Below are positions 7,245-20,678 of a DNA stretch of 64,000 nt, one piece after another (positions within the stretch are counted from its first letter, which is position 1; every line of letters begins with the position of its first letter). The DNA comes from Achromobacter sp. Root83. GTDB taxonomy: Bacteria; Pseudomonadota; Gammaproteobacteria; Burkholderiales; Burkholderiaceae_B. The notes beneath the pieces were generated by a model that ran no database searches, was not told the origin of the DNA, and saw nothing but the letters and a program-made list of their open reading frames with translations. A program made the translations under genes and the position numbers. Location: the NCBI RefSeq assembly GCF_001428845.1, contig NZ_LMIU01000005.1:63248-127247 (forward strand), written 5' to 3'.

Positions 7245-7514
7245 TTAGCGGCGGCGCAGGAAATGCACGCAATGGCCTTCGGCCTCCTGCTGCGCGACCA
7301 ACACGTTGCCGGTTTGGCGCGCGAAGGCCTGGAAGTCGCGGATGGCGGTGCGGTCGGTGGTGATGACGCGCAACACCTGACCGCTTTCCATCTGCGCCAG
7401 TGCCTTCTTGGCCCGCAGGATAGGCAAGGGACAGGTCAGCCCAGTGGCATCGACCTGATGCTCGAAGGCCGGCGCCTGGGCGCCGGCATCCAGGTTGGCA
7501 TCCACGCCGCTCAT
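7245..7514 (-). CDS. tusA: TusA-like sulfurtransferase
   Basis: An 89-residue SirA/TusA family protein. The active-site motif is ATGLTCPLPILRAKKAL, in which the cysteine of CPxP carries a persulfide; the C-terminal half has GQVLRVITTDRTAIRDFQAF. TusA proteins relay sulfur for tRNA thiolation, molybdenum cofactor or sulfur metabolism; which of these applies is not shown. The ATG at 7514 overlaps the alaS stop as TGATG, so the two genes are translationally coupled. Whether this is the TusA of mnm5s2U synthesis or a paralogue needs comparison with other copies in the genome. Confidence 0.9.
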   Translation of the reverse strand: MSGVDANLDAGAQAPAFEHQVDATGLTCPLPILRAKKALAQMESGQVLRVITTDRTAIRDFQAFARQTGNVLVAQQEAEGHCVHFLRRR

Positions 7515-10138
7515 CAGAGACGCTCGTCCACCCATTTCTGCACGCCGGCGATCGCCGCGGGCAATGCCGCGAGGTCCGTGCCGCCGCCCATGGCCATATC
7601 AGGGCGGCCGCCCCCCTTGCCTCCTACCTGGCTGGCGACAAAGCCGACCAGATCGCCGGCCTTGATGCGGTCGGTCAGGTCGGCGGTCACGCCGCCCACC
7701 ACGCTGATCTTGCCGTCGGCGGAGCCGGTAGCCAACAGCACCACGGCCGGCTTCAGGCGGTCCTTCAGGTTGTCGACCATGCCGCGCAGCGCCTTGGGAT
7801 CCACGTCGACGATGCTGGCGGCCAGGACCTTGATGCCCTTGACCTCAACGGCGGCGCTGGAAGCCAGATCATTGCCGGCGCTGGCAGCCAGCTTGTTGCG
7901 CGATTGTTCCAGTTCTTTCTCGAGCGCCTTGACCTGATCCTGGACCTGCGCGATGCGGACGGGCAAATCCGCCGGCGTGCTGCGCAGCATGCCCGCGACC
8001 TGGGTCAGCAAGGCGTTCTGGTTCTGCACCCAGGCCAGCGCGTTGTCGCCGGTGATGGCTTCGATGCGGCGGACACCCGCGGCCACGCCGCCCTCGGAAA
8101 CGATCTTGAACAGGCCGATATCGCCCGTGCGGCTGACGTGCGTGCCGCCGCAGAGTTCGCGCGAGAAACCGATGTCCAGCACGCGCACCGTATCGCCGTA
8201 TTTTTCACCGAACAGCGCCATGGCGCCGCCCTTGACGGCGTCATCGTAGGCCATGACCTGGGCCACCGTGGGGTGATTGGCCAGCACCTCGGCGTTGACG
8301 ATGGCCTCGACGCGGGCGATCTGCTCCGCGGTCAGCGGCGCGTCCTGCGCGAAGTCGAAACGGGTCTTGTCGGGGTCCACCAGCGAACCGCGCTGCTGCA
8401 CATGCGCGCCCAGCACCTGGCGCAGCGCCTTGTGCATCAGGTGAGTGGCGGAGTGGTTGCGGACCGTGCGGGCGCGGCGGACCGCGTCCACGCGGGCCAG
8501 CAGGGTGTCGCCGACCGACAGCGAACCGGATTCGAGGACGCCGTGGTGGCCGAACACGCCGGCCTGGATCTTCAGGGTGTCGGCGACGGCAAAGCGCACG
8601 CCGTCGGCTTCCAGCAGGCCGGTATCACCCACCTGGCCGCCCGATTCCGCGTAGAACGGGGTGGCATCCAGCACGACCACGGCGCTCTGGCCGGCCTTCA
8701 CTTCCTGGACCTGGGTGCCGTCGACGTACAGCGCCGTGACCTTGACGTTGTCCAGCTCCAGCTTTTCGTAGCCTTCGAAGCGCGTGTCGGCGCCTTCGTA
8801 GCTCAGGCCTTCGGCCATCTTGAACTTGCCGGCGGCGCGGGCCTGGTCGCGTTGGCGCTCCATGGCGACCTCGAAGCCAGCCATATCGACTTCAACTTCG
8901 CGCTCGCGGCAGATGTCGGCGGTGAGATCCACGGGGAAACCGTAGGTGTCGTACAGGGTGAACAGCGTGGTGCCGTCCAGCACGCCGCCCTTGGGCACAT
9001 TGGCCAGGGCCGTGTCCAGGATGCGCATGCCGTGCTCGAGGGTTTCGCCGAAGCGCTCTTCTTCCTGCTTGAGCACCTGGGCCACGCGGTCGGCCGTGGC
9101 GGCCAGTTCCGGATAGGCTTCGCCCATTTCGGCGACGAGGTCCGGCACCAGGCGATGGAAGAACGGCTTGGTCTGGCCCAGCTTGTAGCCATGGCGCAGC
9201 GCGCGGCGCACGATACGGCGCAGCACATAGCCGCGGCCTTCGTTGCTGGGGATCACGCCGTCGACGATCAGGAAGGAGCAGGCGCGGATGTGGTCCGCGA
9301 TGACCTTGAGCGAGTTGTCTTCCAGGTCCTTGATGCCCGTTTCGCGCGCGGCGGCGGTGATCAGGTGCTGGAAGAGATCGATTTCGTAATTGGAGTGCAC
9401 GCCCTGCAGGACGGCGGCGATGCGTTCCAGGCCCATGCCGGTATCCACACAGGGACGCGGAAGGCGCGGCATGTTGCCGGCCGCATCGCGTTCGAACTGC
9501 ATGAACACCAGATTCCAGATCTCGATGTAACGGTCGCCGTCTTCTTCGGGCGAGCCCGGGGGGCCGCCCCAGATCTCGGGGCCGTGGTCGAAGAAGATTT
9601 CCGAGCACGGACCGCAAGGCCCGGTGTCGGCCATCTGCCAGAAGTTGTCGGAGGCGTAGCGCGCGCCCTTGTTGTCGCCGATGCGGATGATGCGCTCGGC
9701 CGGCACGCCGACTTCCTTGGCCCAGATGTCATAGGCCTCGTCGTCTTCCTGGTACACGGTGACCCAGAGCTTTTCGGCGGGCAGCTTGTAGACCTGCGTC
9801 AGCAATTCCCAGGCGTACTGGATGGCGTCGCGCTTGAAGTAGTCGCCAAAGCTGAAATTGCCCAGCATTTCAAAGAACGTATGGTGGCGGGCGGTGTAGC
9901 CCACGTTCTCCAGGTCATTGTGCTTGCCCCCGGCGCGCACGCTGCGCTGCGACGAGGTGGCACGCGTATACGACCGCGACTCCTTGCCCGTGAAGACGTC
10001 CTTGAACTGGACCATGCCCGAATTGGTGAAAAGCAAGGTCGGGTCGTTGCCCGGGACGAGCGAGGACGAAGGAACAATGGTGTGTCCCTTGGACTTGAAG
10101 AATTGCAGAAACTGCTGGCGAATCTCGGAGGATTTCAT
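7514..10138 (-). CDS. alaS: Alanyl-tRNA synthetase
   Basis: The 874-residue class II synthetase charges tRNA-Ala. Motif 1 region: [20 protein letters not shown] and [12 protein letters not shown]; motif 3 region: [15 protein letters not shown]. The editing domain has the zinc-type HxxxH in [14 protein letters not shown] and the later CGGTHV. The C-terminal C-Ala domain carries [14 protein letters not shown]. Length is typical (about 875). It follows pilV on the same strand but has its own TATAAT upstream. A very long open frame on the opposite strand is a GC-rich shadow. Confidence 0.99.
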
Positions 10139-10170: not shown

Positions 10171-10176
10171 ATTATA
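10171..10176 (-). promoter_or_regulatory. Probable -10 element for alaS
   Basis: A perfect TATAAT is present on the minus strand 33 bp before the alaS start. No good -35 hexamer lies at 16-18 bp, so the promoter is only partly supported. Confidence 0.4.
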
Positions 10177-10231: not shown

Positions 10232-11308
10232 CTACCGCACGCAGACGTAACCGGTGGTCCACCCCTCGGTTTCTGTCCATTTGCCCCCTGCGGACACGAT
10301 GACACTGGCGTACCCGTCGGGGCAGGAACACTGGCCGGTGCGCGGGTTCGCGGTGGAAACGCCCGTGAAATGGGAACAGCCCAGCGGGTAATTCATGCTG
10401 TACGCGCCGCCAAACCCGCCGCTTGCCTGAGCCCAGACCCCCGATTGGCAAGCCAGCAGCTCGCCCTGGGCGGAACTGGCCAGCGCGCCCGATGTGACGC
10501 CGCAGTAATGGCCCGGCGTCTCTCGGGCGCCTACCGTCACATAGCCGCCCGCGTGCACGTTGCCGGCGACCGAGAGCGAACCCTGGAGGTCGGGGTCCCG
10601 TGTGTCCCGCATTTTCACGTAGCGATTCATATCCGGCTGGCCGCTACCCGCCCCCGCGCCAGCCCACAGCGCCAGGGTTCCCGCCGCATACGTCGGCGCG
10701 CCGGCACCCAGGGGATTGGGAAAGCTGTACGCGGCTCCGCGCAGTAACGCAGGCGCCTCGGGCCATACCGCGCCGCCGTAGCCGCCCGCGGCCTCGATGA
10801 CGGACGCCATGGCAATGTGATCGGTAAACTGCGTCCCTTTTTTAAGCAATGGCTTGTCGGCATAGACCACGCCGTCGATGCGGCAAGGCTCGCCGGGACA
10901 CGCCGTTGCCCGCAGAATCCTGATGTCCGCGCCGAAGCCCAAGGCCGACTGGTTGGGAAAGTCGCCGGGCAGGTATCCGTTGCTGCGCAATTCGGCCAGG
11001 GTGGGCAGGAATGCGTTCACGAACAAGGGAAGCCCTTGGCTGTTGACGGGCCCCTCGCCCTTGGCCATGACGTCGAAATGCCGCGTCAGCACGCCCGCTA
11101 CCGCCACCCGGACCTGGGTCATCCAGACGCCCGCCGACCGGGCCGCGGCGGCCTCGATGTGGTGCACCACGTCGTTGGATGCCCAGATGGCGACCGCGGT
11201 GGCAATGGCCAGCGCCAGCGCCATGGCGGCCAACGAGAAGCCCGCCTGCCGCCGTTGGCCGGCGGCCGCGCGGAAGGGACGGCCCGGCACGCAGTCAGGC
11301 CGGCTCAT
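10232..11308 (-). CDS. pilV: Minor prepilin, PilV-like pilus-tip adhesin of a type IVb pilus
   Basis: The 358-residue protein has a type III leader ending QRRQAG, then FSLAAMALALAIATAVAIW, a pilin-like hydrophobic helix. The rest is a long, glycine-rich ectodomain with a C-terminal cysteine-containing part (CSCPDGYAS near the end). In R64-like thin pili PilV sits at the tip and chooses recipients through a variable C-terminus. Here the +5 position after the leader Gly is Ala, not the usual Glu. The start was placed at the ATG overlapping the pilS stop (ATGA). No shufflon repeats or rci recombinase gene follow; alaS comes next. Confidence 0.8.
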   Translation of the reverse strand: MSRPDCVPGRPFRAAAGQRRQAGFSLAAMALALAIATAVAIWASNDVVHHIEAAAARSAGVWMTQVRVAVAGVLTRHFDVMAKGEGPVNSQGLPLFVNAFLPTLAELRSNGYLPGDFPNQSALGFGADIRILRATACPGEPCRIDGVVYADKPLLKKGTQFTDHIAMASVIEAAGGYGGAVWPEAPALLRGAAYSFPNPLGAGAPTYAAGTLALWAGAGAGSGQPDMNRYVKMRDTRDPDLQGSLSVAGNVHAGGYVTVGARETPGHYCGVTSGALASSAQGELLACQSGVWAQASGGFGGAYSMNYPLGCSHFTGVSTANPRTGQCSCPDGYASVIVSAGGKWTETEGWTTGYVCVR

Positions 11309-11922
11309 CTTGCGGTGAACACGAAAGTATTCACGTCGCCCTGGCTGCATTGGGCCTGCGCCTGCGCCGCGCGGTAGGGCACGCCGGGCTTGGCTATCGT
11401 GTCCTTGACGACCTTGGCGCCGCTGGTTCCCGTGATGGAAATGATCTCCGATACCCGCTGCAGGACCGAGGCGAGCGCGGGGCAGGCCGCGTGGCTGACG
11501 CTGGTCAGCGTGAGCGTAAACGCGGATCCCATGCCAGCGCCGTCGACGGCGACAGGCTCGACCCCGACAGTGCCGCTGCCGCCCGTTCCACTGCCACCCA
11601 AGCCATGGGCAACGCTGGCCGTCGTGCCCGAGCCCTGCACGGCCAGCACGGTGGAATCGCGCAGCGCATTGGCCAGGGCGCCGGTATCGAGCCCCGTATA
11701 GGGCGTGACCCCGCCGCCCTGGGCATTGATTTTCATGCTGGCAACGAAGCGCTGCAGTTCTTCCCCCACCTTGGGCACCTTGTTTTCAATGACGTACGAG
11801 CCGATCGCCGGGATGCCGACAATCGCGATCAACAAGACAATGGCGGTGACGATGGATACCTCCATCAACGAGAATCCCCGTTGGCGCATCGCGCCGGACC
11901 GGAACCTATCAAGACCTTGCAT
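11305..11922 (-). CDS. pilS: Major prepilin of a type IVb pilus, PilS-like
   Basis: The 205-residue protein has a 16-residue leader ending RQRG, followed by FSLMEVSIVTAIVLLIAIVG: the prepilin peptidase site with Glu at +5 and a hydrophobic helix. The C-terminal part carries two cysteines (HAACPAL and AQCSQGD) that could form the D-region disulfide. Secondary features match PilS/TcpA pilins. The ATG at 11922 has AGAGG about 5 bp upstream. It lies between pilR and pilV, its usual place in R64-type clusters. Confidence 0.86.
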   Translation of the reverse strand: MQGLDRFRSGAMRQRGFSLMEVSIVTAIVLLIAIVGIPAIGSYVIENKVPKVGEELQRFVASMKINAQGGGVTPYTGLDTGALANALRDSTVLAVQGSGTTASVAHGLGGSGTGGSGTVGVEPVAVDGAGMGSAFTLTLTSVSHAACPALASVLQRVSEIISITGTSGAKVVKDTIAKPGVPYRAAQAQAQCSQGDVNTFVFTAR

Positions 11923-11976
11923 GGCTACCTCTTTTGAATGAAGGCGCAGCGCGGCTGCGCCGTGATGGCCGGCCGG

Positions 11977-13113
11977 CTATTGGCTGGCATAGAAGTTGGT
12001 CAGTGCCTGACGAAGCTCGTCGATGACCGCGTAGTGCCAGAGCGTGATTCCCAGCACGGTTCCCAGGGACAGGATCAGCAACGACCAGCGCAACACGAGC
12101 GCCTGCCGCCGCACTCGATCCAGCAACCGGAGTTCGACCCGCTGGCGCACGCGAGCCAAGCCGGTTTCCACGCCTAGCGCATCCATCATGTCGGCCATGT
12201 ACCACCACGTTTCGGGGTCCAGCAGCCCCGTGCCGAATATCTCGGGACCGCTCGCGCCGGCGTCGATACGGCTCAGCATGGCCTGCAGGTGCGCATGCAG
12301 CCAGGGCTGCGCATCGCGGGCCTGCACGGACAGCGCGTACCGCAAGCGGGTGTCGGCCGCTCCGTGCTGCCGGATGAGCACGGCCAGCAACGAAAGAAAG
12401 CGGATCGCCTGAAAATCCCGGTACAACCGCCAAAGCAGCCAGCGATCCAGAACCGCCCTGATGTCTCCGGTGAGGTTCGCCAAGGACCACAGACTCAGCA
12501 GGGCCGCACCGAAAAGCAGGACCACCCATAGCGCGAGCCATTGCCGCAAGCCGTTTGCCAGCGCGAACAGCGCGCGCGTCAGGGGCGCGTAGTCATCCGC
12601 GGGCACCGCCTGAAACACCTGCTGCAGCCGCGGCACGGTGAAAAAAGGAATGGCGCAAAGCAACGCGAAAGCCACCATTGCCGCCACCACGCCCGTCGCG
12701 GCGGCCGACACCAGCGCCTTCCATGCGCCGGATGCCAGCCTGACCGCGCGCGCCAGATCCCGCAGTGCCGCGGCCAGGTCCCCGCCCTCTTCCTGAACGC
12801 AGCTGAGCAATTGGCATTCGCTGGACGGCAGCGTGTCGGACCAGGCAACACCCAAGTCGCCGCCGGCAGTGAGATAAGCCGACGCCCAGTGCCCGCACAG
12901 GCGGCCGCGCACGGTATCCGGCCCGTATCGGCGCGCGTCGTCGTCGAAGATGTCGCGCAGGCTCTTGCGCCCTTGCGTGCCTTCGACGACGTCGGCCAGA
13001 TATTCGTAGTAGTCCGCGCGGCGCGAGCGAAAGCGCAGCGCGTCCAACCGCGAACGAGGAACCGCGCCGACGATGCGGGACCAGGGGAATGGGCGCAGCG
13101 TGGGATCAGCCAT
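11977..13113 (-). CDS. pilR: Type IVb pilus inner-membrane platform protein, PilR (GspF family)
   Basis: The 378-residue protein belongs to the T2SSF/PilC group of polytopic membrane platforms. It shows two copies of the F domain, with transmembrane helices at about ALVSAAATGVVAAMVAFALL, ALWVVLLFGAALLSLWSL and LILSLGTVLGITLW. In this family it couples the cytoplasmic ATPase to the assembling pilus. The start overlaps the end of the ATPase gene by 8 bp. Identity as PilR rests on family and on its position after PilQ. Confidence 0.85.
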   Translation of the reverse strand: MADPTLRPFPWSRIVGAVPRSRLDALRFRSRRADYYEYLADVVEGTQGRKSLRDIFDDDARRYGPDTVRGRLCGHWASAYLTAGGDLGVAWSDTLPSSECQLLSCVQEEGGDLAAALRDLARAVRLASGAWKALVSAAATGVVAAMVAFALLCAIPFFTVPRLQQVFQAVPADDYAPLTRALFALANGLRQWLALWVVLLFGAALLSLWSLANLTGDIRAVLDRWLLWRLYRDFQAIRFLSLLAVLIRQHGAADTRLRYALSVQARDAQPWLHAHLQAMLSRIDAGASGPEIFGTGLLDPETWWYMADMMDALGVETGLARVRQRVELRLLDRVRRQALVLRWSLLILSLGTVLGITLWHYAVIDELRQALTNFYASQ

Positions 13114-14833
13114 GCACGCCCCCTGCCGGTTCCACGCCCCCGGCGGGCGGCGCCGTGGGCAGGTCGAACCTGCGCAAGAGCGCCCGGGGATCGATTTCGC
13201 CGCGGCTGACCTTGTACAGCGCGCAATCCAGCGCCCGCGCGCTGCCCGTGGCCGCGTCGCGCCAGGCTACAGGGCCGGCCGCCTGGGCCTGCTTCTTCAA
13301 GCCCAGGTTGTCCCGCCTGCGTACCGAATCAAGAAATCCGTGCGCGCGTTCGGGTTCGATCATTTCGGCGGCGACGCAGCGGCCCACCGTGCCGTTCAGC
13401 TCGGGCAATTGCGCACGCCGGCATTCGGGGCATCCCGCTGCGTTCCTGACCCGTAGCGTATCGGTATCGAGCTCGAAAGCCCTTTGCATTTCCCGCACCC
13501 ACGTCCGCCAGTCCTGCGTGGCGCCCGACGACCGATGCCTCTGGGCCTGGCTCCAAAGGCTGTCCACCGGCAGCGCGCAGCGATTGCAGAGCCGTGGCAG
13601 CAAGGTCTGGTAGACGAGCAGCTTCAGGATGCCGGGCGACGCCAGGAAGTCGCGCGACACGCCGATCGCATCCGACGCCAGCCGCTCCGGAATCATGGCC
13701 GCCGAACCTGAATGGGTGGTGGCATACAGGCTGACGCCCGAGCTGGCGAGATCCATGAAGGCGCGGCCGGTATGGGTATCCCGGATCTCGCCGATCAGCA
13801 GATCGTTCATCGCCGATCGCTTGATGGTCTTGAGCTTGGCATCCAGGGCGGGCCACGCGGAATCCGCCAAGGCACCCGCCAGCGTATTCTGCAGGGCATT
13901 GCCAATGTGGTATTCCACCGGGTCTTCCAGCGTGATGACCTTGCGGGTGGGCGCGATGCCGCGCATCAACGCGGCGATGGTGGTGGACTTGCCCGAACCG
14001 ACGACGCCAGCCAGCACGATGGCGCCGCCGTCGCGCTCGCGCGCCCTGAGCAAGGTCTCGGCCTGCCCCGGCAGGTAGCCCAGCGCAAGCAGGTCGCCGT
14101 CGACGGCCGCGTCCAGCCGCAGGATGCGCAGGCACACGGAAGGCCCCGCATCGGCGGCCAGCGATGCCCAGCGCAGCACGATGGGAACGGCGTCCACGTC
14201 AAGCGCAATGCGCCCCTGCTGTTCCAGCGCGGGATCGAACACCGCGCCGTTGCCGCCGCGCACGTCCATCCAGGCCACGGCCAGCACCTCCAGCAGCGTG
14301 GAACTGGACAGGCCCGTGAACCGCTCCGTGCCGATGTACTCGCCGTGGATCGTGTAACGGACGTGGCCGGCGTCGCGCCGCTGGTTCACATTGATGTGTA
14401 CGTCGCTGGCGCCTTGGGCCACTCCCCAGCGCACGATGTCAAGGAACAGCGCGGCCAGCGCCGAGACGCGTTCCGCCTGTCTCGTTCTGGTCCAGCGCCC
14501 CGGGCCCGGAGCCTGGAACTGGCCGCGGGCGATCATCAGCAGGAGCGGCGCGGAGAGCACATAGCGGGAGGGTTGCGCCATGCGGTGGCCAGCTGCCTTC
14601 ACCATGCGTTCGACTTCATCGATCTGGTCGCCCACCGTGTACTCCCTCACGGTGAAGATCGCGGCTACGCCCCCTTCCAGCAGTACCGGGCACAGCCGGC
14701 CGGCCAGCGAGGCCAGATCGAATTCGCGGCCCAGCGCGCGAACGAACGCCGGATCCAGACGCGCGATGTCTTCCGGTGATTGAAGTTCGGGCGGGCGCAC
14801 GGCCGGCTCCGCACTCAAGGAGGACGAGATCAT
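13106..14833 (-). CDS. pilQ: Type IVb pilus assembly ATPase, PilQ (GspE/VirB11 family)
   Basis: The 575-residue protein powers pilus extension from the cytoplasm. Walker A is GVVGSGKST (276-284), the Asp box is TLEDPVEYHI (301-310), and the Walker B region is MNDLLIGEIRDTHTG (about 343-357). A CxxC pair (CNRC, then CPEC) forms the zinc-binding C-terminal element seen in GspE-type enzymes. The R64 PilQ is the nearest match in organisation. The start overlaps the pilP stop (ATGA). Note that in type IVa systems the name PilQ means the secretin, which is a different protein. Confidence 0.92.
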   Translation of the reverse strand: MISSSLSAEPAVRPPELQSPEDIARLDPAFVRALGREFDLASLAGRLCPVLLEGGVAAIFTVREYTVGDQIDEVERMVKAAGHRMAQPSRYVLSAPLLLMIARGQFQAPGPGRWTRTRQAERVSALAALFLDIVRWGVAQGASDVHINVNQRRDAGHVRYTIHGEYIGTERFTGLSSSTLLEVLAVAWMDVRGGNGAVFDPALEQQGRIALDVDAVPIVLRWASLAADAGPSVCLRILRLDAAVDGDLLALGYLPGQAETLLRARERDGGAIVLAGVVGSGKSTTIAALMRGIAPTRKVITLEDPVEYHIGNALQNTLAGALADSAWPALDAKLKTIKRSAMNDLLIGEIRDTHTGRAFMDLASSGVSLYATTHSGSAAMIPERLASDAIGVSRDFLASPGILKLLVYQTLLPRLCNRCALPVDSLWSQAQRHRSSGATQDWRTWVREMQRAFELDTDTLRVRNAAGCPECRRAQLPELNGTVGRCVAAEMIEPERAHGFLDSVRRRDNLGLKKQAQAAGPVAWRDAATGSARALDCALYKVSRGEIDPRALLRRFDLPTAPPAGGVEPAGGVHG

Positions 14834-15324
14834 GGCCGGGTGCCTCCTGCGTCGAGGCAGGCGGTATGGTCGCGGCCCTCGCGGTGCAGGCGCACGCAGG
14901 CCCCATCAATGGACAACAGGCGATAGGCGTCCATCGTGGCCGAGCCCGCGACGGGATCGGCGCGGCCCGCGCGATAACGCAGCAACGCGCCGTTGACGAC
15001 GACGTCGGCGTTCAGGCTCCTGGCCGTGCCGAATATCGCAGCGACCCGGATGTCGTCCCGCGTTCGCGCCGACGGCGCAGCCGATGCGGTGAATTCGCGT
15101 CCGGGTGCGCAAATGCCGGGCACCCTGCAATCCGCAAGGGCGGCAGCGGCATCCGCCCGCAGCAAGGTGAGCACGGTCTCGGTTTCCGGCCAGGGCTGCG
15201 GTTCCGGTGTCTGGGGCGAAGCGGCGTGGGCCCGGCAGGCCGCTGCGCCAGCGGCCAACGCGATACCGAGCAAAAGCCGTCCGAGGGCCGACCGGCTGGA
15301 AATGCCACGGCTATTCCTGTTCAT
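14830..15324 (-). CDS. pilP: Type IVb pilus biogenesis protein, PilP-like
   Basis: This 164-residue exported protein has a signal sequence (SALGRLLLGIALAAGAAACRAHA) and a short mature part with DDIRVAAIFGTARSLNADVVVNG near the middle, as in the R64 PilP group. PilP proteins are periplasmic links between the inner platform and the secretin. An upstream ATG at 15348 is possible, but AAGGAG lies 7 bp before the ATG at 15324, so the shorter start was chosen. It overlaps pilO by 14 bp. Confidence 0.78.
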   Translation of the reverse strand: MNRNSRGISSRSALGRLLLGIALAAGAAACRAHAASPQTPEPQPWPETETVLTLLRADAAAALADCRVPGICAPGREFTASAAPSARTRDDIRVAAIFGTARSLNADVVVNGALLRYRAGRADPVAGSATMDAYRLLSIDGACVRLHREGRDHTACLDAGGTRP

Positions 15325-16648
15325 AGATATCTCCTTGCAATTCGGCAACGAGCGCGCTGGCGGTCAGGCTGGGCCGCAACTGGGGCTGAACGTCCACGAC
15401 CAGACGGGACCACCGGGCGGCGGGAACGGGCCCAGGCATGAGCGCCATCGAACGCAGCGGCCCGTGCAAGGTCAAGGCCCGCCGCCTGAGGACGGGCAGG
15501 TCCATGCGCACCGCGCCCGCCTGCGGAACATCCGCTTGCGCGGGCGCGGCCATGCGCGGCAGCAGCGGAATCGGCGGCGACAGCACCACCGATGCGAAAG
15601 CCGGGCGCAGGCCCTGCAATCCCCCCGCCACCTGAGTGTCGACGTGCAGCGCGGAGGGCAGCGCGATGTCGGCCAGCGGTAACGTTCCCGATGCCACGCG
15701 CCAAGCCAGCGTGGCCTCTTCGAGCGGTTTGAACGACACTTGCCAGCCGGCTGGCAACAAGGCGTGCAGACTATGATTGTTAGCCAGCGGATGGGCCCTG
15801 GCGTAGATTGCCGAACAGTTCCATTCCCGCGCGCCGGCGTCGCACTGCGCCCGGCGCAATGCCCAGCCCCTGACCTGTATGGGCAGCCTGCCCATGGCGG
15901 CCAGCAAGCGCCCCAACGCGGCCGGCTCGTGCGCGGCGGTGCCGCGCAGCATGGCCTGGTAGGCGTCGGCGACGGGATCACGGACTGGAGACGGCTGGGG
16001 CGTCGGGGGTTGTTTCCTGAGCAGCGGACTGACCGTGCCGTTCCACAAGGGGGGAACCACGGCGGCGCAGACCATGCACGCCAGAAACAAGCGCAACGCC
16101 AACGGCAGCTCGGCCCAGCGCGAAGGAAGCGCCGTCAGCCGGGCAGCGGGCTCGGCCGCCTGCTGCAAAGCCGCCCATACCTGGTCCGAAGCGTGCTCTT
16201 TCAAGGCCGGGCGCAGGGCAAGCAAGGCCCGCTGTTCATGCTGCGCCGCCTCAAGCGAGCCAAATACCCTATCCGTCTGCGATATCACCGCGCCGCCATG
16301 AGCCGCCACGAGCCAATGCCGCCCGTCTGGCAGATGCACCAGGCTATGGCCGCCATCCGGATACAACAGCGCGAACAACTGCGCGGCCGCCTGCAGAGGG
16401 GCCGCGCCTGCCCGACGTCCAGCTGGGACGTGGCGGCGGTACCGCCATCCCAAACGCGCCCGGCCATAGCCGGCCACCGTGGCGGGCACGCCGCCCACCA
16501 CGTAATGCGTCGCCCGCAAGCGCCGGCCGCGCGCACGCGCCAGCGCGGGGACGTTGGATCCGATCAGCGCGAACCAGCGCAGACCGAACGCCAGCATCCG
16601 TCCCGAACCCGGACATTCAAGCAGGAAGAACTGCGGGGCCCGGTTCAC
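15311..16648 (-). CDS. pilO: Type IVb pilus inner-membrane protein, PilO-like
   Basis: The 445-residue protein has a long cytoplasmic N-terminal part, a single transmembrane segment at about residues 185-205 (LALRLFLACMVCAAVVPPLW) and a periplasmic C-terminal half. This is the layout of PilO proteins of R64-type clusters (PilO2 family), which with PilP form the inner alignment complex. The N-terminal portion has TVAGYGRARLGWRYRRHVPA and several Trp/Tyr-rich motifs typical of the family. It lies just downstream of the secretin gene (gap 2 bp). Confidence 0.78.
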   Translation of the reverse strand: MNRAPQFFLLECPGSGRMLAFGLRWFALIGSNVPALARARGRRLRATHYVVGGVPATVAGYGRARLGWRYRRHVPAGRRAGAAPLQAAAQLFALLYPDGGHSLVHLPDGRHWLVAAHGGAVISQTDRVFGSLEAAQHEQRALLALRPALKEHASDQVWAALQQAAEPAARLTALPSRWAELPLALRLFLACMVCAAVVPPLWNGTVSPLLRKQPPTPQPSPVRDPVADAYQAMLRGTAAHEPAALGRLLAAMGRLPIQVRGWALRRAQCDAGAREWNCSAIYARAHPLANNHSLHALLPAGWQVSFKPLEEATLAWRVASGTLPLADIALPSALHVDTQVAGGLQGLRPAFASVVLSPPIPLLPRMAAPAQADVPQAGAVRMDLPVLRRRALTLHGPLRSMALMPGPVPAARWSRLVVDVQPQLRPSLTASALVAELQGDIYEQE

Positions 16649-16650
16649 GC

Positions 16651-18240
16651 TCAGTATCCTTCTTCGACCTGGGCCGTCACGAGCACCAGCGTGGTCAGGC
16701 GTTCGGACGCGGCGCTATCCAGGCCCCCGGCAAGCAGCGGCATCCCTGGCGCCAACCGCTGGCGATCATGCTGATCCTGATTGCGGTCGAAGCCGGAAAC
16801 GATGACGGGCTGCCCGGGGCGCAGTTCGATCTGCTGCACGGTGCCGCTGCCGTCGATGGTGATCTGCTGAACCTGAACCTGGTTGGCGCTTTCTCCGAAG
16901 GTGATGGTCTTCAGGGGCTGTGCAACCGCATTGTCATAGGCGATGGACAAGAGGATCTGGCCGTCTTCCTGTATGTCCGGCAACAGCGTCAGGAACGAAC
17001 CGACCGTCTCTTCCTTCTGGCTGATGGACACGGCGGGCAGCGACCCGTTGGCGCCGCTGGACGTCATGCCTGGGACCGCGGTGCTTTGCACGCGGTCGAT
17101 ATAGGAGAAAGTGGTTCTGACGGCATGCGTGACGGGCCGGCGGTTCAAGGTCAGGACCGGAATCTTGCTGTGCCGCACGACCGCGCCCATGGTGCTGAGC
17201 GCGGAGACGATGCCTTGCGAACCCTGAAACGCCCCCCTGCCGGCCGCCGCCTGAAACAACCCCGCGCCCGTGCCCGATGCGCCGGGCACGGCAAGCCTTG
17301 CGGTAGCGCCCGCCGCGGCATAGAGGACGTTCCAGTCGATGCCGCCCGAGGCCTCGCTGTTGGCAATCAGGGTTATTTCCTCGAATACCAGGCGCACGCG
17401 GCGGGTGAGCGCCTTGTTCTCGCGCTCGAGGTAGCGGGCAACCCGGTCCAGGGCCTCTGGCGTATCGGTCACGACGAGCGTGGTGGCGCCATCCACCGGA
17501 TCTCCGATCACGCCGGACCGGGTCAGGAAGGGCAGGATGCTGGCGCGCAGAATGGCCATCGCGTTGTGCTCACCCGCAGAGAGGGAGGTATTGGAAGTGC
17601 TTTCGAAGCCCTCTCCTTCCGCGCTGCCTGAACGGCCCAGCCTGACGTCGACCTTGCTGGCCAGCGACAGCGCCCGAAGGTCAAACACGCGCGTATCGGT
17701 GCGGTAGAACTCCAGCGCGTTGTGTTCGTAGCGCCAATGGACCGAAAAGCGCGCGGCCAACGCGTCCAGCAGATCGGCAAGCGGCTGCGGATCCGCGCGC
17801 ACCTCGATACGGACAGGAGCGGAAAGCGCCAAGGACCCGCTGATGGCCAGGCGCGGCAGGAACAGATCCTGAGGCAGCAGCGCATCCGGACGAACCCGCA
17901 CCGCGATGCCGGTGGCGGCGGTCAGGCGCTGGGCCAGCGTGGGAAGGTCGGCGTCGTCCGCGAGCATGAGCGTGGTTTGCACATTTTCCCGAAGCGCGGG
18001 CGGCAGCAGGACCTCGCGCGCGAGCGGCTGCGGCTTGCCCGCCAGCCAGGGAGCCGCCACCTCTTGCGCGTCAAGACGCGCCTGGCGGTCCGACAGGCCG
18101 TCGGCGAAGGCCTGATGACGGGCGGCCACATCGGCATGTCTGCCGATGGCCGTGCGGCGCAGCTCGGATACCTGCTGCGACACCGCGCAGCCGCCCAGGA
18201 CGCAGGACATCGCGGCGGAGACAAGCAGTCTGGGATTCAT
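16651..18240 (-). CDS. pilN: Outer-membrane secretin lipoprotein of a type IVb pilus, PilN-like
   Basis: The 529-residue protein begins MNPRLLVSAAMSCVLGGC; LGGC is a lipobox, so it is a lipoprotein. N-terminal secretin-type repeats lie in the middle (TLVVTDTPEALDRVARYLER near residues 240-260), and the C-terminal beta domain includes GSFLTLLPDIQEDGQILLSI and IELRGQ-like segments (about 430-500). Lipoprotein secretins of this size are typical of R64 PilN and TcpC. The start was placed at the ATG overlapping the previous stop as ATGA; an upstream frame was rejected as it runs inside the pilL gene. Confidence 0.88.
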   Translation of the reverse strand: MNPRLLVSAAMSCVLGGCAVSQQVSELRRTAIGRHADVAARHQAFADGLSDRQARLDAQEVAAPWLAGKPQPLAREVLLPPALRENVQTTLMLADDADLPTLAQRLTAATGIAVRVRPDALLPQDLFLPRLAISGSLALSAPVRIEVRADPQPLADLLDALAARFSVHWRYEHNALEFYRTDTRVFDLRALSLASKVDVRLGRSGSAEGEGFESTSNTSLSAGEHNAMAILRASILPFLTRSGVIGDPVDGATTLVVTDTPEALDRVARYLERENKALTRRVRLVFEEITLIANSEASGGIDWNVLYAAAGATARLAVPGASGTGAGLFQAAAGRGAFQGSQGIVSALSTMGAVVRHSKIPVLTLNRRPVTHAVRTTFSYIDRVQSTAVPGMTSSGANGSLPAVSISQKEETVGSFLTLLPDIQEDGQILLSIAYDNAVAQPLKTITFGESANQVQVQQITIDGSGTVQQIELRPGQPVIVSGFDRNQDQHDRQRLAPGMPLLAGGLDSAASERLTTLVLVTAQVEEGY

Positions 18241-19121
18241 GCCGCGGCCCCTTGCGACGCCGCTGCCCGTGAGCAGGATTGGGCCAGGGGAACGACGCGC
18301 AGCACGCGGTTGCCGTAGAAGCACGGTTGCAGCGGCCTGTCCGCCAATTCGGTGGCCCCCAGCAGCCCGCGCACCGCGGATTTGAAGTCGCCGGAGAATT
18401 CGGCGGTGGCGGACAGGGGGATGTCCACATCCACGGCCCAATGCTGAGGCTGGAATGTCCAGCCCGCCGTGTCGGCCCAACGCGCCAGCACGGCCCGCAG
18501 CGTAGCGTCCGGCGGCGCTGCGCGGAATGGCGCGACAGGCGCGGCGGCGGACGCGGCCGGAACGGCGTCCGTGGGCGGCGTGCGCGCGGGGGAGCCGCCC
18601 GCGATGACGGCATCGGCGGGAAGGCGGCCTGGGGATTCATGCCCCGGCGCCCCGGACGATGCCGGATTCGGCGCCATGCCAGGGGCGGCATCTTGCCTGC
18701 CGGCGGTGGTGTCGCCGGCGCGGCGTTCCGATTCTGCCTCTTGCGCCGGACCCGGTTCGGCGGACTGTGCCCGCTGCGCTTTGGCCGTCAGCCGCCCGCC
18801 TCGAAAGGACAGGCCTTTCCAGGCGCCTGCGACCACCACGTAGGGATCGCGGCGCACATAGGGCAAGGCGCGCTCGCCGTCGCTGCCCACGCCGAAGATC
18901 GCGGGCAGGGGCTGGCCCGGCACGAACTGCAGCCAGGTTTCGCGGCCGTCGTCGAACACCTGCAAGGGCGCGACGGCGGGATCACCGGACAGTTGCCAGT
19001 CGAAGCGGAAGCCTTGCGCGGGCGGACTGGCGGCCCACGGCGGCCCGCCCGCGCCTGGCCCGGACCACGTGCATGCGCCCAGGCAGGACAGCCCGGCCGC
19101 CAGGAAGAAGATTCGTACCAT
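18237..19121 (-). CDS. pilL: Lipoprotein with TcpQ-type C-terminal domain, PilL-like
   Basis: The 294-residue protein has a lipobox (LGAC, Cys17). Residues about 38-115 (FDWQLSGDPAVAPLQVFDDG, then PAIFGVGSDGERALPYV) resemble the N-terminal lobe of VirB9/TrbG-type proteins. A linker of about 95 residues rich in A, P, G, E follows. The C-terminal 75 residues (LARWADTAGWTFQPQHWAVD, then DFKSAVRGLLGATEL, then PLQPCFYGNRVLRV) match the TcpQ/PilL domain that helps place the secretin. It is the first gene of the pil operon, with GGTGAGG before the ATG. Confidence 0.75.
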   Translation of the reverse strand: MVRIFFLAAGLSCLGACTWSGPGAGGPPWAASPPAQGFRFDWQLSGDPAVAPLQVFDDGRETWLQFVPGQPLPAIFGVGSDGERALPYVRRDPYVVVAGAWKGLSFRGGRLTAKAQRAQSAEPGPAQEAESERRAGDTTAGRQDAAPGMAPNPASSGAPGHESPGRLPADAVIAGGSPARTPPTDAVPAASAAAPVAPFRAAPPDATLRAVLARWADTAGWTFQPQHWAVDVDIPLSATAEFSGDFKSAVRGLLGATELADRPLQPCFYGNRVLRVVPLAQSCSRAAASQGAAA

Positions 19122-19256: not shown

Positions 19257-19287
19257 AAAAAAAAGCCCGGTCCAGAGACCGGGCTTT
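19257..19287 (-). terminator. Rho-independent terminator of dadA-ugpB
   Basis: AAAGCCCGGTC, loop CAGA, GACCGGGCTTT is followed on the minus strand by a run of eight T. It separates the ugpB-like gene from the pil operon. Confidence 0.93.
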
Positions 19288-19327
19288 CGCGGAAAACGCG
19301 TGGCGCGTCAGCGGCGCGCCGTGGCGA

Positions 19328-20674
19328 TCAGCGTTGCGGTTGCGCCGCGATGCTGCGCGCCTGCGAGGCGGCGTTGTTCAAGGCCGCGACCGGGGGCACC
19401 TTGCCTTCGAAGGCATCGGTGAGCTCCTTGTTCAGCACGGGCTCGATGCGTTCGTAGTTGGCCATGCGGAACCCGCGGCTGTTGGCCACCGGCTTGGCGC
19501 TCATGGAAGCGATCAGCGTCTGGGCGCCCGGGATGCGGCTGTAGAACGAAACATCGGACGCACGGAAAGCGGCTTCGGTCAGCGGCAGATAACCGGTGCG
19601 CTGGTGCCATTCGGCGGCGACAACCGGCTTGGAGAGCCAGGCCAGGAACTGAGCGGTGGCTTTTTCCTGGTCCTTGGGGTGGCCGTCGAGCGCCCACAAT
19701 GCCGAACCGCTCACGAACGGCTTGCCGCCTTCCTTGGTGGCCTGGTCGTAGTAAGGCAGGGGCGCCACGCCGAACGACAGCGACTTGGTGGCAAGGAACT
19801 GACCGAACGCGCCCGAGTTGGCCGTCAGCACCGCACATTCGCCCTTGGCGAACAGCTTGTCGCTGGCGTTGTCGCCGGAGTACGCCATGAACAGCAGCGA
19901 ACGCTTCCAGCTCACCATCATCGAGATGTGGCGCATGTAGAGCGTGTCGAACTGCATGGCGGGCGCGGCAGACTTCTTGCTGACGGCGTCAAGGCCATTG
20001 TTATTGCTGGTGAACTGCTGATTGTTGACCGGCGCCAGGTTCTCGAGGTGGACCGCGACCTGATCGCTGGAAGCGTAGGGGCAATCGATATCAGCCACGT
20101 CGCGCAGCTTGAGCAATTCGGCCTGCAGGCCGGTCCAGGTGCGGGCCGGCTTGTTGGGATCCAGGCCGGCCTTCTTGTAGGCGGCGGTGTTGTAGAACAT
20201 CACCGGCACTTCGGCCATCCAGGGGAAGGCCAGCAGGCGACCCTTGCTGTCGCGGGTGAAGCTGCTGGTGGCGGGGATGAACCAGTTCAGGTCCTTGATC
20301 GGGTACTTGGCCAGCAATTCGTACAGCGGAAGCACCGCCTTGTGCTGGGCCACGACTTCGGGCGAGTGGTTGTCGTTCAACTGCAGCAGGTTCGGGCCCT
20401 TCTTGGCCTTGACCGCGGACACGGCCTCCTGTTGGAGGGCGTTGGGCGACGCAAAGCCGCGCAGCGTGACGCGGACGTCGTCCTGTTCCTTGTTGTATTG
20501 CTTGGCGAGCTTTTCAAACTCTGCCTTGTTAGCGTCGGACAGTGTGTGCCAGACCTGGATCTCGACGGGCGCGGCATGCGCCGCGCCGGCCATCGCCATG
20601 GCGGCGCCAAATACCCATGCGCGCCGGCTGGCGAACATCGCGCGGGCAACGCCCGCCAATTGCAGTTTCTTCAT
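19328..20674 (-). CDS. UgpB-like ABC transporter binding protein (orphan)
   Basis: The 448-residue protein has a signal peptide (cleavage near AHA, residue 34) and the body of a family 1 extracellular binding protein: VEIQVWHTLSDANKAEFEKL at the start of the mature part, VMFYNTAAYKKAGLDP, and the C-terminal AEWHQRTGYLPLTEAAF. This pattern is that of UgpB (sn-glycerol 3-phosphate). The gene starts 4 bp after dadA. No matching permease or ATPase gene is nearby, so it must use distant ones or has another role. The upstream in-frame extension lies inside dadA and was rejected. Confidence 0.87.
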   Translation of the reverse strand: MKKLQLAGVARAMFASRRAWVFGAAMAMAGAAHAAPVEIQVWHTLSDANKAEFEKLAKQYNKEQDDVRVTLRGFASPNALQQEAVSAVKAKKGPNLLQLNDNHSPEVVAQHKAVLPLYELLAKYPIKDLNWFIPATSSFTRDSKGRLLAFPWMAEVPVMFYNTAAYKKAGLDPNKPARTWTGLQAELLKLRDVADIDCPYASSDQVAVHLENLAPVNNQQFTSNNNGLDAVSKKSAAPAMQFDTLYMRHISMMVSWKRSLLFMAYSGDNASDKLFAKGECAVLTANSGAFGQFLATKSLSFGVAPLPYYDQATKEGGKPFVSGSALWALDGHPKDQEKATAQFLAWLSKPVVAAEWHQRTGYLPLTEAAFRASDVSFYSRIPGAQTLIASMSAKPVANSRGFRMANYERIEPVLNKELTDAFEGKVPPVAALNNAASQARSIAAQPQR

Positions 20675-20678
20675 AGGT

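Follow-up and report, generated by a model that had tools for sequence, protein, structure and literature searches.

In the window analysed here, a stretch of 64,000 nucleotides from Achromobacter sp. Root83 (contig NZ_LMIU01000005.1, positions 63,248 to 127,247), an operon of eight genes, pilL-N-O-P-Q-R-S-V, was found on the minus strand (19121-10232), which probably encodes a complete, vertically inherited chromosomal adhesive pilus of the R64 type. The pilus would depend on the general prepilin peptidase PilD and have no transglycosylase of its own, and a part of its PilL protein may also be of use without the pilus. This reading builds on gene content, synteny, co-inheritance, a single peptidase of the A24 family in the genome, a predicted domain fold, solo genes and the ratio of nonsynonymous to synonymous substitution rates (dN/dS, or omega). 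For PilL itself, the balance tips slightly towards a stand-alone VirB9-like outer-membrane lipoprotein, usually encoded upstream of alaS and having its own function, which was adopted into PilL and often retained alone after losses of the pilus.

Gene content of the operon

The genes and the parts relevant here are as follows (positions of the window).

pilL, 18237..19121, minus strand: lipoprotein of 294 aa with VirB9/CagX C-terminal-like (PF03524, E 9e-13) and TcpQ (PF10671, E 1e-20) domains
VirB9-like domain of PilL, 18753..19019, minus strand: residues 35-123
TcpQ domain of PilL, 18291..18530, minus strand: residues 198-277 (PF10671)
pilN, 16651..18240, minus strand: secretin of 529 aa (TIGR02520), probable lipoprotein (lipobox by eye)
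pilO, 15311..16648, minus strand: R64-type accessory protein of 445 aa
pilP, 14830..15324, minus strand: 164 aa, weak match to TIGR03021 (E 0.058), assigned by position and conservation
pilQ, 13106..14833, minus strand: assembly ATPase of 575 aa (PF00437, E 1e-34)
pilR, 11977..13113, minus strand: GspF-type platform protein of 378 aa (PF00482, E 3e-6; TIGR02120 below cut-off)
pilS, 11305..11922, minus strand: major pilin of 205 aa, leader G/FSLMEV, Glu at +5
pilV, 10232..11308, minus strand: minor (tip) pilin of 358 aa, leader G/FSLAAM, no Glu at +5
PilV tip segment, 10235..10438, minus strand: residues 305-372 as numbered from a start at 11350, the best-conserved part

All eight frames are open, intact and tightly spaced on one strand, in the R64/IncI1 order that the original prediction had named. 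Its description of the gene starts as mostly overlapping is correct for pilL/pilN (ATGA at 18240/18237), pilO/pilP, pilP/pilQ, pilQ/pilR and pilS/pilV, but pilN and pilO are separated by 2 bp and pilR and pilS by 54 bp. Judged at the sequence level by gene order and PilS family (PF08805, E 3.5e-8, 34 bits vs a cut-off of 22), the operon is of the R64 type; against the PDB, PilS found the Salmonella PilS only at E 0.085, amid chance hits. Genome and locus searches revealed no pilM, pilT or pilU in or near the operon. The gene content and the lack of these three genes and of a switching apparatus therefore stand as first described, whereas the start of pilV is more likely at 11308 than at 11350, which would add 14 residues, because the ATG at 11308 lies in an ATGA overlap with the pilS stop and because the closest homologues (P0121 and P0122) have 358 aa; others reach 376 aa and beyond.

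Distribution and inheritance

A PilO match was obtained in 36 of 43 genomes of the genus and in 193 of 268 genomes of the family (34 of 43 genera), where the profile included the PilO of a second R64-like cluster on contig C26 of the same genome, so that either kind of cluster is counted. In the 29 genus loci compared (29 of the 36 with PilO: the window, L014, L050-L069, L135-L140 and L146), the same operon lies in the same order between ugpB and alaS without exception, four loci ending at a contig edge (L056, L065, L136 and L138). This comparison of relatives had been proposed along with the original prediction. Among 40 high-scoring stretches from 22 other genera (L078-L117), 39 carry the operon and one (L116) a C26-type cluster. 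In 31 of these 39, the stretch also contains alaS downstream; additional sequence stands in front of alaS or within the operon in a few, and pilP lacked a BLAST match in seven, the gap having room for a diverged pilP. The SLT (transglycosylase) and TrbM proteins of C26 had no tblastn match in the 39 operons.

Distances of PilN, PilQ, PilR and PilS correlate with those of AlaS (r 0.88-0.94 for 56 of the 66 loci given, with 0 of 500 permutations as high), also inside the genus (r 0.60-0.84). Together with the eight-gene set being usual across the family, this argues for an old, stable and vertically inherited locus and not a recent reduction. The earlier view of a reduced pilus consequently holds in that the pilus is fixed and has no switching apparatus, but not in the sense of a local loss, since relatives usually have the same set. 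Recent transfer of the operon is ruled out by the AlaS distance correlation. Decay, which had been named as a possible refutation, was rejected as well, as selection on the operon genes corresponds to dN/dS values of 0.14-0.31. One genus genome (L054) has a frame change in pilV, either a mutation or a sequencing error.

A conserved PilV tip

In known systems, R64-type pili serve conjugation, and R64 PilV has a shufflon with the rci recombinase. In and around the pilV described here, no shufflon-like repeat set was found, the repeats amounting to two 18-nt inverted pairs with 78% complementarity, and no rci lies near (the closest integrase match is ~36 kb away), in agreement with the original prediction. 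Overlooked there was that, at the sequence level, the conservation pattern is inverted relative to that of a shufflon PilV. Across 19 sequences (21 genus loci minus three with breaks, plus the window), amino acid identity is 0.78 in the tip, 0.64 in the shaft and 0.51 in the N part, and the corresponding ratios of nonsynonymous to synonymous differences (pN/pS) are 0.22, 0.40 and 0.66. In other genera, PilV similarity extends to the final residues in 30 of 38 loci but breaks off earlier in eight (L084, L088, L093, L100, L107, L110, L112 and L113), so the tip appears mostly kept and sometimes, as in these eight, perhaps exchanged. At +5, 35 PilV sequences have Glu (15), Gly (13), Ala (3, including the window) or a gap (4).

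A VirB9-like domain in PilL and its solo relatives

The original prediction recognized an R64-type pilL, but missed its VirB9-like domain and the survival of this domain after pilus loss. Cys17 of the lipobox (by eye) is invariant in A4, and residues 35-123 are predicted to adopt the VirB9/CagX C-terminal fold, the N-terminal part of PilL matching the VirB9 C-terminal beta-sandwich in the model. The likeness is to the VirB9/TrwF/CagX C-terminal domain of the outer-membrane core of type IV secretion systems (T4SS), in fold and by PF03524, of which PilL hits only positions 113-189 of 198. Unlike VirB9, PilL has no VirB9 N-terminal domain, begins with a lipobox, is fused to TcpQ and does not stand in a T4SS operon, as no T4SS genes were found among the frames around the locus. 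In a genome of another family (G315), a frame directly following a VirB10-like frame (L206:1411-3063) starts VirB9-like and matches TcpQ, a second TcpQ and an OmpA-like middle being seen by eye; here both domains are joined on the apparent T4SS side.

In the seven genus genomes lacking PilO, ugpB and alaS are 663-724 bp apart, and in each of them this gap contains an open frame matching PilL from its start to residue ~106-133, while TcpQ and pilN-pilV gave chance matches only. In a DNA tree of oxr, ugpB and alaS, six of these genomes form one clade (support 100), which groups with the pilus-retaining L137 (support 99). The other, G025, lies outside this seven-row clade, its own position not being resolved by the tree, and the pilus was therefore lost at least twice in the genus, which rests on the branches themselves. 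The six are most simply explained by a single deletion, although the junctions do not prove it.

The solo VirB9-like genes are under purifying selection. In the six genomes, 120 codons contain neither indel nor stop, as against 8.9 stops expected in the absence of selection (P ~1e-4 for stops alone), and with a Muse-Gaut codon model omega peaks at 0.25 (lnL -1395.7 vs -1436.0 at 1), giving a 2 delta lnL of ~80 for omega below 1. Elsewhere in the family, omega is ~0.15 in g2 (four genomes) and below 0.2 in g39 (three poorly aligned genes, flat curve).

Family-wide, 75 of the 268 genomes lack a PilO match, and 46 of these match the VirB9-like domain, six of them weakly or, by length, as T4SS VirB9; the 40 stronger candidates include 12 left uninspected and G170, viewed at close range only. 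The 22 PilO-less genomes inspected outside the genus, chosen for their domain match, comprise 17 with a solo gene, three having PilL with TcpQ (G053, G061 and G066) and two with T4SS-like matches only (G141 and G211); the 11 genomes with a PilO match examined alongside all have TcpQ. In the 17 solo loci (L177-L193), neither TcpQ nor pilN-pilV was found at 1e-5, and alaS lies within 1 kb in ten, after 4-6 kb in two and adjacent but opposite in one; it is not on the stretch in three, and one locus ends at a contig edge. Solo VirB9-like lipoproteins without alaS on an 18-kb stretch were seen in L189 and L190 (g8) and L191 (g6), and the gene may thus survive at a distance from alaS. All ten solo domains tested match PF03524, eight above the cut-off. 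In an alaS tree of 54 of 68 rows, midpoint-rooted and without outgroup, six changes are required to explain the solo state, and well-supported branches force five of them.

Peptidase and other pilus loci of the genome

The genome (6.2 Mb, 28 contigs) has a single A24 match, a PilD-like protein on contig C2 whose gene adjoins a frame read by eye as coaE, and PilD is the only enzyme detected that could process PilS and PilV in this genome; the earlier claim that the peptidase comes from elsewhere is thereby supported. At least one A24 match is present in 257 of the 268 family genomes, including 191 of the 193 with PilO, and this near-ubiquity makes peptidase presence non-discriminating. As had been expected, no pilT, pilU or rci belonging to the operon appeared nearby, judged by genome-wide A24, SLT and integrase matches. 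Five SLT matches lie on contigs other than that of the operon, one of them in the C26 cluster. PF00437 has seven matches in the whole genome: GspE of a type II secretion system (T2SS) and VirB11, both over their cut-offs, a Tad-type ATPase just below its own, this PilQ, the PilQ of C26, and two further matches that fall short of the Pfam cut-off; PilT was not recognized among them.

The search for other pil loci, likewise suggested before, returned the R64-like cluster of C26 (L016:464-11886, L015), in which pilL-N-O-P-Q-R-S-V is followed by an unknown protein of 292 aa, TrbM and SLT; a VirB11 ATPase is encoded close by, and integrase matches lie at C26:70911 and C26:161566. This cluster, too, lacks pilU and probably represents an integrative element. 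Contig C5 carries a Tad-type cluster (C5:22242-30928; L017:10243-18929) with the TIGR03819 ATPase just below cut-off, two T2SSF matches and, by eye, CpaB, RcpA and TadE-like frames, the genome having no second A24 peptidase; an incomplete tadE-orf-rcpCA-tadABC set is described for Kerstersia in the accessible part of PMC6461280.

Borders of the operon

ugpB-like gene, 19328..20677, minus strand: upstream flank
intrinsic terminator, 19261..19288, minus strand: after the ugpB-like gene and upstream of pilL, from a terminator scan
TATAAT, likely alaS promoter, 10171..10176, minus strand: seen in front of alaS in 13 loci, pilus-bearing and pilus-less
alaS, 7514..10138, minus strand: downstream flank on the same strand, 93 bp after pilV

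The borders thus agree with the original prediction. Of the seven terminators in the scan, that at 19288-19261 is the strongest, and shuffles give a mean of 9.7, so seven are not in excess; the locus sequences of relatives show the same stem behind ugpB.

Alternative explanations

Several observations weigh against a complete, PilD-dependent adhesive pilus. In PAPI-1 of Pseudomonas aeruginosa, all ten pil genes, including pilT2 and pilM2, are needed for transfer (PMC5297154, accessible part), and a pilus without both might therefore need substitutes, of which none was found. PilN, PilO and PilP fall below curated cut-offs or lack a match: PilN scores E 1.8e-51 and 175 bits against TIGR02520, under the cut-off of 287.65, and PilO has no Pfam match, no PDB match by sequence and 30% identity to the PilO of C26, which itself matches PF06864 below cut-off. 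The PilD-like protein has no NCBIfam model match at 1e-10, and most relatives in the genus (40 of 43) have at least two A24 proteins, so PilD is not the sole candidate there. PilV gave no structural match below E 0.001 to the PDB and viral models and none by sequence, for which reason deriving the tip ligand from structure was dropped. It seems improbable that the operon encodes an accessory (mating-pair) pilus for conjugation which was captured from a mobile element and today acts in trans for the C26 element or for plasmids. Such a role would fit the R64-type pilus of PAPI-1, which serves conjugation (PMC5297154), and the VirB11 T4SS ATPase on C26. However, C26 itself encodes an R64-like pilus along with SLT and TrbM genes, for which reason the operon was rejected as the pilus of that element, and the chromosomal operon keeps its synteny across many genera and diverges in step with alaS, as a recent capture would not.

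For PilL, one could suppose that a solo VirB9-like lipoprotein was ancestral before alaS and became PilL by fusion to TcpQ as the pilus arrived, the deep solo lineages never having been piliated. We regard this as possible but doubtful: the inspected g2, g25 and g39 members are solo, occupy one end of the alaS tree (midpoint-rooted) and share a motif absent from PilL (by eye), but that tree lacks an outgroup, and the solo cases nested within the genus, g3, g13 and g27 require later losses anyway. That the solo frames are decaying pilL stubs left by deletions, without function, is improbable, despite observations some of which also count against a retained function: the C-terminal tails of the genus solo frames enter the alaS leader in differing frames, pN/pS is 0.50 in solo genes vs 0.28 in intact pilL (0.83 in one young pair), omega is ~0.4 in the youngest trio, and 29 of the 75 PilO-less genomes (nine under 1 Mb) have no domain match, some lineages having lost the VirB9-like part too. 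Decaying stubs are hard to reconcile with 120 uninterrupted codons in six species, the likelihood support for omega below 1, which still amounts to 2 delta lnL 7.5 in the youngest trio, and g2 genes conserved end to end.

Comparison with known systems and implications

In the mechanism we propose, PilQ and PilR would assemble PilS on a PilO/PilP platform after cleavage of PilS and PilV by PilD, and PilL may dock with its TcpQ domain on the secretin PilN; its VirB9-like domain would build or brace a ring in the outer membrane, comparable to that of VirB9 in T4SS. The single conserved PilV tip would bind a surface ligand, probably a glycan, as the C-terminal parts of PAPI-1 PilV2 and R64 PilV bind LPS (PMC5297154), and the pilus could thus serve adhesion or aggregation rather than conjugation. 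A use of the VirB9-like lipoprotein independent of the pilus is suggested because the gene is kept under selection in many lineages after pilus loss.

The closest comparisons come from the accessible parts of PMC3984277 and PMC5297154. The R64 thin pilus (IncI1) shares the order L-N-O-P-Q-R-S-V and the PilS and PilN families, but comprises 14 genes including pilM, pilT and pilU (PMC3984277), and its PilV C-terminal segments are variable (PMC5297154), whereas the operon described here has no pilM, pilT, pilU, shufflon or rci and a conserved tip. The pil operons of Salmonella Typhi, pSERB1 and Yersinia pseudotuberculosis likewise lack pilI, J, K and pilT and are, in the accessible part, not listed as lacking pilM or pilU (PMC3984277). 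PAPI-1 and Tfp7 of Burkholderia pseudomallei have no pilU and take their peptidase from elsewhere, PilS2 of PAPI-1 being cut by the chromosomal PilD (PMC3984277), and the type IVb pilus peptidase is treated as a loner (PMC6668835, accessible part). Unlike the operon here, PAPI-1 is mobile and conjugative and retains pilT2 and pilM2 (PMC5297154); Tfp7 is chromosomal, conserved in its genus and has TcpQ for PilL, but differs in order, with pilM2 present and pilT2 nearby (PMC3984277). As pilT or pilU is missing in published members, the local absence of pilM, pilT and pilU was not taken as excluding the R64 type. To our knowledge, no R64-type member in print lacks pilM. Clusters without pilU, or without pilT, are already known (PMC3984277), and here all three are missing. 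For PilL, the nearest parallel is Xanthomonas VirB7 with an N0 domain, a secretin-type domain in a T4SS (PMC3093366, accessible part); here the exchange is reversed, with a T4SS-type domain in a pilus operon. Among the matches listed, open-access titles and abstract beginnings held nothing on a TcpQ/VirB9 combination, a solo VirB9-like gene, an alaS-linked Bordetella pilus or an R64-type Achromobacter/Bordetella locus.

New here are the joint absence of pilM, pilT and pilU as the norm of a family, the VirB9-TcpQ PilL and its solo afterlife. The family would have a non-mobile type IVb pilus with one fixed, conserved tip, in contrast to plasmid pili, whose tips switch and vary, and its operon offers a short list of candidate genes for such a pilus. 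The findings moreover point to a domain of the T4SS outer-membrane core at work in the partner of a pilus secretin. Natural species pairs with and without the pilus exist at the same locus, and the solo lipoproteins make it testable what a VirB9-like domain does without a T4SS operon or a pilus.
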